Assembly (NCBI GenBank): GCA_018267875.1
Contig: JAFDXP010000020.1
Span: 1-64,000, forward strand
Direction: 5' to 3'
From: Bacteroidota bacterium
GTDB taxonomy: Bacteria > Bacteroidota > Bacteroidia > Chitinophagales > Chitinophagaceae
DNA: 64,000 nucleotides
The notes beneath the pieces are model-generated. The model saw nothing but the letters and a program-made list of their open reading frames with translations, ran no database searches and was not told where the DNA came from. Positions within the stretch are counted from its first letter, which is position 1; the number at the start of each line of letters is the position of its first letter. This document shows, piece after piece, positions 22,283 to 25,485 of the stretch. Made by a program: the position numbers and the translations under genes.

Positions 22283-24739
22283 TTAAATCGGTACTATTAT
22301 TTTCAGGCTGATATTTTGCCCCATATTGTATATTCCATAATGTCCGGTAGGGGAATAGTTGTAATATTCAAAATATTTAAGTCGGTTTAAATTTGACTGG
22401 TAAGCTCTGTCAAAGAGGTTGTTTGCTTGGAACGTAATTTGAATGGACTTCGTTTCGTTGAATTTAATTTCAGCATTGAGTCCTAAGTTGAAAAGGGTAT
22501 AGCTTGGCGTAGCGGTTTCTGTTTCACTCAATCCTAAATAACGATTTTGGGCATTGTTAAATTCCATTTCAAACCTTGGGGTTAATGATACTAATTTTTC
22601 TTTTTTAGGTTTTATTTCGTACGCTATTTCGCTCATTAGTTTTAGTGGTGGTATCAACGGTAAATATTCACCTTCAACACCTTTGCCTTTGAAAGTAGGA
22701 TTTTTATTTGTTCCATACACAAAACTCAAGCTATTGTCCCAGCGGAATCCTTTTAGTTTTTCCGGATGTAGGGCAAATCCTATTTCAGAACCATACAAAT
22801 GGGCTTCTGCTTGTTGGTATTGATAGGTCCTGTTACCTTGGGCATCCAAAATGGGATTACCTTGGGCATCCGCAACAGTTTCCATATAGATGTAATTTTG
22901 AATATTGTTATTAAAAAAACTTGCTTCTGCCGAAAAGTCTTTATACCTGATACTGATTCCTAAGTCTTCTTGAAATGAAAATTCGGGTTTAAAATTTCTG
23001 TTTCCTAAATAGATGATGTGTGCTCCGGGATCCAATCCGTTACTTCCGATTTCTGTGATATTGGGCGAACGATAAGCTCTCCCAATATTCGCTTTTAGGC
23101 TGATGTGTTGAGATGCCTTAAATGTTGCCCCAATACTTCCACTTACACCGTGAAAAGTCTTTCGGTATTTTGGAAATTGCAATTCGGCAGTGGGGTCGGT
23201 AACAGTGGATTGTTGTTCAAAACCTGTTTCAGGATTTATTCCTACATAAAAGTCATTCCATTGTACGTGTCTTAAATCATAACGAACTCCTCCGCTAATA
23301 CTCCATTTTTCTTTTTTCCATTTTGCATATAAATATAAACCGCCATCGTATAAATCATAATCAGGAATCGGGAAATCGGTGGCGTCTTTACTCTTGTTGT
23401 TTTGCAACATTCCATTGATTCCCATAGAGGTTTCAAAATTGGCAAATTTTGGCGAATTATAGCGTATCCCGTAATTTAATGTGTTTAGTCGCATAGACAT
23501 ACCTGCTTGTTTGGGCGCTGTGGGGTGATTAAATTCTCTTCGGATATTTTGTTGTCCACCTAATATGAAATCTATATCCCCTTTTCCTATTTCATAAAAA
23601 CTGTGCAAATACAGCCTGTAATGCTGTATATGCTGCGCCAAATCGGGAATTTTATATGAATTCAATTCTTTGTCCGAAACAACAGGTCTTGTTGTGATGT
23701 CGTCATCATCGCCTTCAAATATTTGCTTTGTAAATTTTCGGGTTAATGGGTCTCTACTTCCATCCGGAATTCCCTGATGATTGTCATAAAGGGTAAAATT
23801 TAGGTGTGTGTAACCTTTGCTTGATTTGTAACCAGCCAAAGCGGAAAAATTGCTTTCCCTAAAATTGGTCAGATACACTCGCCCATCAATTGGATTTCTA
23901 TAATTCTTCGCCATTCTGTAAGAACCACGCAATGCAAATAAAAAACGGTTGTCAGAATAATTGAGATTCAATCCATTTCCAATCAAATTATTGTTGGTAT
24001 GATATTCAGAAGTGTATTTTCCGTGAATCTTCCCGTCGTTTTCATTGGGTATTTTGGGAAATAAACTGATTACTCCCGCAATAGCATCACTTCCGTACAA
24101 TAAACTTGCGGGACCTTTAATCACTTCGGCTTTGTCAATGTTGTAGTCGTCCACTTCTAAACCGTGTTCATCGCCATACTGCTGGCCTTCCTGACGAATT
24201 CCATCATAAAGTGTGAGTACTCGGTTATAGCCTAAACCGTGAATAAAAGGTTTTGAAATATTGGGTCCTGTTTTAACTGCATTTAACCCGGGAACTTTTT
24301 TTACTAAGGCGTCTATAATGTTACTTTCAGATGTTTTTTCTATTTCTTTTGGAGATACGGCGATAATAGAAATCGGGTTTTCTCTAATCTTAGTTGCCCT
24401 TGTAACCCCCGTTATAACCACATCCTCTAATAATGTACTTTCAGCATGTAAAAACACCTGATAATAATCCTTATTCGGTAATATTTGTAAGCTATCTCTC
24501 TCATATCCTGGGGTTTGGAATATTAAAAATAGGTTATCCTCGCTTTCTGAAATCTGGATTGCGAAGTTTCCTTTTTTGTCTGTAGTTGTTTTGATTTGTT
24601 CTATGGGTTGGAATACGTTACAAAACTCAATGGGAGCTTTCGTATCTGCATCCTGTATGGTACCGAAAACGGTTCTTTGTTGAGCGTAAATATGCGTATT
24701 TGTACAAGCAAACACTAATAGTAAAATTGTATTTTTCAT
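22283..24739 (-). CDS. TonB-dependent receptor, probably metal-regulated
   Basis: An 818-residue outer-membrane receptor: signal peptide (1-19, ending IYAQ), a carboxypeptidase-like regulatory domain (about 21-105: GTIQDADTKAPIEFCNVF), a plug domain (about 115-235: LEDVVITGVTRATKI, VKKVPGLNAV, IHGLGYNRVLTLYDG, VIKGPASLLYGSDAIAGVI) and a 22-strand barrel ending in the aromatic strand before the terminus. The segment GQQYGDEHGLEVD after the DG motif is seen in receptors grouped near ZnuD, but metal choice cannot be settled by eye. It diverges from a DtxR-type regulator, and a DtxR-like box lies within its promoter, so repression by a metal-loaded regulator is likely. Confidence 0.9.
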   Translation of the reverse strand: MKNTILLLVFACTNTHIYAQQRTVFGTIQDADTKAPIEFCNVFQPIEQIKTTTDKKGNFAIQISESEDNLFLIFQTPGYERDSLQILPNKDYYQVFLHAESTLLEDVVITGVTRATKIRENPISIIAVSPKEIEKTSESNIIDALVKKVPGLNAVKTGPNISKPFIHGLGYNRVLTLYDGIRQEGQQYGDEHGLEVDDYNIDKAEVIKGPASLLYGSDAIAGVISLFPKIPNENDGKIHGKYTSEYHTNNNLIGNGLNLNYSDNRFLFALRGSYRMAKNYRNPIDGRVYLTNFRESNFSALAGYKSSKGYTHLNFTLYDNHQGIPDGSRDPLTRKFTKQIFEGDDDDITTRPVVSDKELNSYKIPDLAQHIQHYRLYLHSFYEIGKGDIDFILGGQQNIRREFNHPTAPKQAGMSMRLNTLNYGIRYNSPKFANFETSMGINGMLQNNKSKDATDFPIPDYDLYDGGLYLYAKWKKEKWSISGGVRYDLRHVQWNDFYVGINPETGFEQQSTVTDPTAELQFPKYRKTFHGVSGSIGATFKASQHISLKANIGRAYRSPNITEIGSNGLDPGAHIIYLGNRNFKPEFSFQEDLGISIRYKDFSAEASFFNNNIQNYIYMETVADAQGNPILDAQGNRTYQYQQAEAHLYGSEIGFALHPEKLKGFRWDNSLSFVYGTNKNPTFKGKGVEGEYLPLIPPLKLMSEIAYEIKPKKEKLVSLTPRFEMEFNNAQNRYLGLSETETATPSYTLFNLGLNAEIKFNETKSIQITFQANNLFDRAYQSNLNRLKYFEYYNYSPTGHYGIYNMGQNISLKIIVPI

Positions 24740-24764
24740 TAAGCTAAATGAATTGTTTCAATGA

Positions 24765-24795
24765 CAAAATTAAAAAGTTAGATAAACCTAACAAA
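24765..24795 (-). promoter_or_regulatory. Complete Bacteroidota promoter for the TonB receptor
   Basis: On the minus strand, a -33 TTTG (24792-24795) is followed after 19 bp by the -7 element TAATTTTG (24765-24772), 25 bp before the receptor ATG. Both elements match the consensus and the spacing is within the usual 19-21 bp. The spacer contains the GTTAG-N6-CTAAC palindrome. Confidence 0.65.
24777..24792. promoter_or_regulatory. DtxR/IdeR-like operator
   Basis: A perfect inverted repeat GTTAG-ATAAAC-CTAAC. The half sites match the TTAG...CTAA core of the DtxR/IdeR box. It occupies the spacer of the receptor promoter and lies just upstream of the divergent regulator gene, so one bound dimer could repress both directions. 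Identity is inferred from pattern and context. Confidence 0.6.
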
Positions 24796-24816
24796 TATAA
24801 TTAGTAAAATCCTTTT

Positions 24817-24824
24817 TATCTTTG
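24817..24824 (+). promoter_or_regulatory. -7 promoter element for the DtxR-type gene
   Basis: TATCTTTG, a perfect TAnnTTTG, with only 4 bases before the ATG at 24829, implying a leaderless or nearly leaderless transcript. The region where a -33 TTTG would lie abuts the operator; no TTTG is present on this strand. Confidence 0.5.
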
Positions 24825-24828
24825 CATT

Positions 24829-25485
24829 ATGGTATCACAAACAGAGGAAAATTATCTAAAGGCTTTGTTTCATTTAACTTGTGAATCAGAACATAAAATC
24901 GAAGCTGGCACAAATGAATTGGCTGTTTATTTGGAGGTAAAACCTGCAACTGTCAATGATATGCTTAAAAAATTAAAAGAGAAAAAATTTGTTTCCTATG
25001 AGAAGTATGGAAAAATTACTTTAACTAAAAAAGGGAAAAGCATTGCGGTTGAAATTGTGAGAAAGCACCGTTTGTGGGAAACATTTTTATATGAAACGAT
25101 GAATTTCACTTGGGATGAAGTCCACGAAGTAGCAGAGCAATTGGAGCATATCAAGTCTCAAAAATTGGTAGAGCAATTAGAAAAGTTTTTAGGTTTTCCA
25201 GAAATTGATCCACACGGAGACCCGATTCCTAATGCAGAAGGGGAGATAAAAAAAATAGTTCGGAAATCTCTTTTTGAAATAAGCATTGGAGCTGTTTGTA
25301 AATTGGTTTCTGTAAAAGATGGTAGCGTAGCATTTTTGCAATATGTCGGAAAGTTGGGTATGGGTTTAAACTGTAAAATTAAAGTTATTAGTCGTCAGGA
25401 ATTTGATGGGTCTATGGAAATAGAGGTCAACAGTCAACGTTTTACAGTCAGTCAAAAATTTGCAAATAATTTGTTTGTTGTTTGA
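24829..25485 (+). CDS. DtxR/MntR-family metal-dependent repressor
   Basis: A 218-residue regulator: winged helix DNA-binding domain (1-70: TEENYLKALFHL, VKPATVNDMLKKLKEKKFV), dimerisation domain with metal ligands of the MntR/DtxR type (RKHRLWETFL; the cluster of Glu and His in WDEVHEVAEQLEHI) and a C-terminal FeoA/SH3-like domain (about 150-218). This three-domain form senses Mn(II) or Fe(II). It is divergent from a TonB receptor with an operator between them. Which metal it senses cannot be fixed from sequence alone. Confidence 0.9.
   Translation: MVSQTEENYLKALFHLTCESEHKIEAGTNELAVYLEVKPATVNDMLKKLKEKKFVSYEKYGKITLTKKGKSIAVEIVRKHRLWETFLYETMNFTWDEVHEVAEQLEHIKSQKLVEQLEKFLGFPEIDPHGDPIPNAEGEIKKIVRKSLFEISIGAVCKLVSVKDGSVAFLQYVGKLGMGLNCKIKVISRQEFDGSMEIEVNSQRFTVSQKFANNLFVV

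Follow-up and report, generated by a model that had tools for sequence, protein, structure and literature searches.

A conserved palindrome as the predicted operator of a DtxR/MntR-family regulator divergent from a TonB-dependent receptor in a Bacteroidota genome

The locus and its divergent promoters

The window, the whole stretch of 64,000 nucleotides that was analysed, carries a gene for a TonB-dependent receptor and, divergent from it, a gene for a DtxR/MntR-family regulator, separated by a short intergenic region in which the following features can be recognized or predicted.

22283-24739, minus strand: TonB-dependent receptor, 818 aa, with CarboxypepD_reg_2, Plug and barrel domains
24765-24772, minus strand: predicted -7 element of the receptor promoter, TAATTTTG, within a conserved block of the alignment described below
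24777-24792, no strand: palindrome GTTAG-ATAAAC-CTAAC, the putative operator, conserved in the orthologous loci L003, L006 and L009
24792-24795, minus strand: predicted -33 element of the receptor promoter, TTTG, overlapping the palindrome by one base
24817-24824, plus strand: predicted -7 element of the regulator promoter, TATCTTTG, its position kept in L003, L006 and L009
24829-25485, plus strand: DtxR/MntR-family regulator, 218 aa, with HTH, metal-binding/dimerisation and FeoA domains
24937-24960, plus strand: recognition-helix codons 37-44 (VKPATVND) of the regulator, containing Asn43, the residue that co-varies with the outer base pair of the operator

A direct read of 24740-24831 places the palindrome GTTAGATAAACCTAAC at 24777-24792. 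The primary-sigma consensus of the Bacteroidota comprises TAnnTTTG at -7 and TTTG at -33 (PMC2483708, PMC7366714), of which the -33 TTTG is not essential (PMC2483708). Both elements are present in the receptor promoter, which reads TTTG-N19-TAATTTTG on the minus strand from 24795 to 24765, with the receptor ATG 25 bases beyond the end of the -7 element, and the palindrome occupies its spacer just as an earlier note on this DNA had proposed. The same note had described a full circuit in which both promoters could be read; this stands for the complete receptor promoter and for the -7 element of the regulator, which is separated from the end of the palindrome by 24 bp, but a -33 element of the regulator promoter is not recognisable, no TTTG having been found at the expected place in the direct read. 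The regulator ATG lies at 24829 and TATCTTTG ends 4 nt earlier, a spacing that is nearly equal in L003, L006 and L009, and the regulator mRNA is for this reason probably leaderless or nearly so.

The pattern GTTAG-N6-CTAAC has a single match in the window, where shuffling gives an expectation of 0.05 and produced a match in 5 of 100 shuffles. The promoter pattern of TTTG, N19 and a -7 element is not significant by itself, with 2 matches in the window versus 4.65 expected. The significance of the palindrome comes from its conservation across four loci and not from any rarity of the promoter pattern.

Conservation of the palindrome

A search for the regulator in public genomes recovered three more loci with the divergent receptor/regulator pair, in Candidatus Parvibacillus calidus (L003; regulator 85% and receptor 75% identical), in a same-genus genome (L009; 75% and 64%) and in Niabella ginsengisoli (L006; 74% and 65%, with the receptor frame broken in the assembly). 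In each of these the distance between GTTAG-N6-CTAAC and the regulator equals that in the window. When the four intergenic regions are aligned, the palindrome and both -7 elements are the blocks that have been kept and the remainder has diverged; the -33 TTTG of the receptor promoter is kept in three of the four. There is thus good reason to see in this region a conserved operator of the DtxR-family regulator next to it, the site being kept at all four loci with this gene pair. Both the receptor frame and an Nramp frame are broken in the Niabella ginsengisoli assembly (L006, L136), perhaps through sequencing errors.

Farther out in the family, regulators from the order that are 42-50% identical are preceded by TTTAG-type palindromes. 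A paired palindrome is found within 150 nt upstream of 16 of 34 regulators, against 0.03 in shuffles, and among loci from a class-wide draw TTAG-N6-CTAA lies within 200 nt of 21 of the 29 top regulators. The association is not universal: two close orthologues (L004, and L010 in genome G028) have no box before the regulator, and the strict site is absent within 250 nt in 44 of the 122 regulators examined, about a third. The palindrome is real and conserved, and is a local variant, with outer G..C in place of T..A, of a class-wide operator TTTAG-rynnry-CTAAA. Neither these exact operator strings nor any mapped operator for Bacteroidia MntR-type repressors was found in the literature searched.

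Co-variation of the outer base pair with residue 43

Of the 122 distinct regulators, 78 have a site no more than 250 nt away, and among these the identity of the outer operator base pair seems to follow that of residue 43 in the protein. Regulators with Asn43 have G..C in six of seven cases and G..T in the other, those with Thr or Ser43 have T..A in 60 of 68, and the three with Val or Ile43 all have A..T. Residue 43 presumably occupies the position of Ser42 in IdeR. In IdeR, Ser42 contacts the DNA backbone and adjoins Gln43 (PMC8464063). One hypothesis, good in pattern and weak in independent events, is that residue 43 reads or accommodates the outer base pair.

It is quite conceivable, if somewhat doubtful, that shared ancestry accounts for the co-variation with no contact involved. 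A tree built without the helix has three changes of Asn43 and two of the outer G, numbers with which no test can reach significance, and there is one clear exception, L258, in which Thr43 accompanies a G..C site. Against ancestry as the whole explanation, two separated Asn43 clades both have an outer G, a Val/Ile clade has A..T, and the promoters of orthologous receptors match the regulator of their genome, with T-type outer bases alongside Thr43 and G..C alongside Asn43. The sister regulators L258 (Thr43) and L213 (Asn43) have the identical site GTTAGATTAGACTAAC.

The regulator and the genes behind the box

The regulator belongs to the DtxR/MntR family, with PF01325 (Fe_dep_repress) and PF02742 (Fe_dep_repr_C) above cut-off in addition to FeoA, and its best solved relatives are 5zr4 (a metal-dependent transcriptional regulator), SloR, 8pvt and ScaR. 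Its metal-site residues are Asn8, Lys11, His80, Glu84, His99, Glu103, Glu106 and His107. The manganese-type carboxylate Glu103, found likewise in all aligned relatives, is at what we take, from the alignment and from family knowledge, to be the position of DtxR Cys102 and of Glu99 in the Bacillus subtilis MntR. In place of the B. subtilis-type binuclear ligands Asp8 and Glu11 the regulator has Asn8 and Lys11; judged by these residues it is not a B. subtilis-type MntR and resembles DR2539 of Deinococcus radiodurans, which has Lys11. None of the NCBIfam equivalog MntR models reaches its cut-off with this protein, the best being NF047407 with 153.7 bits against 350. The metal may be Fe as well as Mn, because DR2539, also with Lys11, responds to both (PMC3327659).

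In relatives TTTAGRYNNRYCTAAA occurs 75 times in 61 genomes, versus 31 for the reversed pattern. The non-regulator genes just behind a box in the order, which were picked for that closeness while sites in genes or before unrelated genes also occur, include those for Nramp (7, three of them from Asn43-group genomes), ZIP (3) and ZnuA-type binding proteins (3), an ABC-3 permease, TonB-dependent receptors (10 by Pfam among those scanned), the Phenol_MetA_deg outer-membrane family (4) and an OprB porin. In Niabella ginsengisoli the Nramp gene is preceded, at 48 bp, by a site in the GTTAG form, GTTAGGTTTGTCTAAC. Since the box precedes Nramp, ZIP and metal-ABC genes and accompanies regulators with Glu at the DtxR Cys102 position, we infer that within the Bacteroidia it is an MntR-type box, autoregulatory and of manganese type (possibly Mn/Fe), and not specifically an iron IdeR box. 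The earlier note had likened the palindrome to the DtxR/IdeR box and called it untypical of MntR sites; the likeness holds for the half-sites (TTAGr-N4-yCTAA) and the spacing, whereas the second part is not supported, since the box accompanies MntR-type regulators and targets.

Judged by the strict motif, the genome of the window itself does not share this regulon. The genome-wide search that the note had proposed as a check yielded only two strict matches in 2.76 Mb versus 5 for a control pattern, hence no enrichment; the second match falls where a dnaK-like gene and another gene converge, between their 3' ends, no other metal gene has the strict motif in front, and the only Nramp gene has no box in the 1.5 kb upstream. 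Other matches to TTAGRYNNRYCTAA in this genome, inside a Cas9-like gene and an exonuclease-like gene, were rejected as a regulon, as were the one-mismatch sites examined, all of which lie inside genes. Operators before Mn-uptake genes (Nramp, ZIP, metal-ABC), as expected of a Mn-responsive regulon, were seen in the relatives and not in this genome.

Several further gene arrangements accompany the box. Small Phenol_MetA_deg outer-membrane proteins with an RPDQTE motif lie directly behind it at four loci (L123, L126, L134, L155) and are candidate outer-membrane manganese channels. A lipoprotein-like protein of about 320 aa (GDDPV..DFIEFFP) is recurrently divergent from a boxed regulator or a boxed Nramp gene (L064, L069, L070, L072, L073, L076, L078, L085, L086, L087, L165, L166). 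At L158:2307-3788 a metal ABC permease is fused to a DtxR-type regulator with a FeoA domain, and a box lies 71 bp upstream.

An alternative is that the circuit resembles those of the iron regulators IdeR and DtxR, the regulator being the iron sensor of a Fur-less genome and the receptor importing an iron complex. The half-sites of the box match the IdeR core TTAGG..CCTAA (PMC8464063), and a response to Fe is known from DR2539, whose metal site is similar (PMC3327659). The receptor is weakly similar to receptors for heme and siderophores, and a feoB gene is located near a GTTAG-type regulator in genome G102. A role in iron control is also conceivable because no Fur-family match (PF01475) was detected in the window's genome (G000), nor in five of the six other same-genus genomes, in a search that detected the family in 13 of 14 control genomes. 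Nevertheless, this alternative is unlikely: the box-controlled genes in relatives are those for Nramp, ZIP and metal-ABC transporters, FeoB is never directly behind a box among the box-associated genes of relatives, relatives that possess Fur carry the same box, and the regulator has Glu at the DtxR Cys102 position. In addition, the promoter of a Mn transporter is bound by PgMntR (PG1044) of Porphyromonas gingivalis, also one of the Bacteroidia, with a strength that Mn raises and Fe lowers (PMC4805248).

The TonB-dependent receptor

The receptor has PF07715 and PF00593 above cut-off, as expected of a TonB-dependent receptor. Orthologues with 50-64% identity and no adjacent regulator have a T-type palindrome in front in four genomes (G013, G032, G016, G001) and a box with one mismatch in a fifth (G025), and receptors at 44% identity or less have no palindrome in front. 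The boxed receptors form a single clade, with support of 1.000. Its members have in common an acidic insertion, EGDDDD, located near 342-347 in the window receptor, and D570/H574, whereas the non-boxed receptors have a conserved His at 570. A CxxC motif in the plug is absent from the window receptor and from the boxed clade, and is present in most other box-associated TonB receptors. Considering both its regulation and the clade-specific acidic loop (EGDDDD), the receptor is a likely candidate for an outer-membrane importer of manganese, or of Mn/Fe. TonB receptors with the plug CxxC (e.g. NCNVCNTGDIHINGLEGPYT), lying behind a box or divergent from the regulator, were noted at 16 loci (L071, L081, L083, L124, L125, L127, L133, L161, L174, L176, L182, L186, L191, L192, L195, L198).

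A broader proposal is that residue 43 sets the outermost base pair in the MntR-type repressors of the Bacteroidia, operator and repressor having co-evolved, and that the receptor defines a manganese-dedicated, non-CxxC family of TonB-dependent receptors. As a whole this is tentative, with odds that fall slightly short of even.

Proposed mechanism and its implications

The reading favoured here, to which we assign a probability of roughly 0.8 on the strength of comparative sequence evidence, is that the palindrome serves the adjacent DtxR/MntR-family metalloregulator as its operator, through which both the receptor and the regulator are shut off when metal suffices. With sufficient intracellular Mn2+ (possibly Fe2+), a dimer of the regulator would bind the one copy of the site, fill the spacer between the -33 and -7 elements and so block the receptor promoter. 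With 24 bp between the end of the site and the -7 element of the regulator, the bound dimer would also overlap the -33 region of that promoter and shut off the regulator. The earlier expectation that occupancy would block the receptor promoter, and probably that of the regulator as well, agrees with this placement. A drop in metal would release the repressor, and the TonB-dependent receptor and the regulator would then be made. It is very improbable that the palindrome is instead the site of another transcription factor or a chance inverted repeat, a reading with which the lack of enrichment of the strict motif in its own genome would agree, but one that does not account for its fixed position in the four orthologous loci, for the TTTAG form found upstream of regulators throughout the class and of receptor orthologues without a linked regulator, or for an outer base that varies with the recognition helix of the regulator.

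The operator predicted here for Bacteroidia MntR-type repressors is concrete enough that manganese-type regulons could be read from sequence. It also points to a TonB-dependent receptor family as a likely outer-membrane manganese importer, and the co-variation offers a specificity hypothesis of one residue and one base pair.

Comparison with known systems

The closest characterised member of the class is PgMntR, which is likewise a DtxR-family protein with a C-terminal FeoA domain. It controls the FeoB-type transporter FB2, however, carries a second FeoA domain and has Cys at the primary site, where the window regulator, with its single FeoA domain and its divergent TonB receptor, has Glu (PMC4805248). 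DR2539, a Mn(II)/Fe(II)-dependent repressor of mntH that binds an inverted repeat, shares the DtxR family, an SH3-like domain, His98 and Lys11 (PMC3327659). It comes from another phylum, and its target is mntH and not a TonB receptor.

In the IdeR/DtxR box TTAGGTTAGSCTAACCTAA the half-sites are TTAGG/CCTAA, and those of one dimer site are spaced at 14 bp, as they are here. That 19-bp box, however, consists of four overlapping repeats for two dimers and serves iron genes, whereas the window operator is a single dyad, TTAG-N6-CTAA, with an A/T-rich centre, with Mn-type targets in relatives and with a regulator that has Glu and not Cys. Among receptors, MnoT of Burkholderia and the CQNC-type receptor of Stenotrophomonas maltophilia are TonB-dependent and linked to manganese, the latter under the control of MntR (PMC13217887). 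The window receptor differs in lacking a plug CxxC, and the CxxC of the other box-associated receptors is similar in kind to the CQNC motif.
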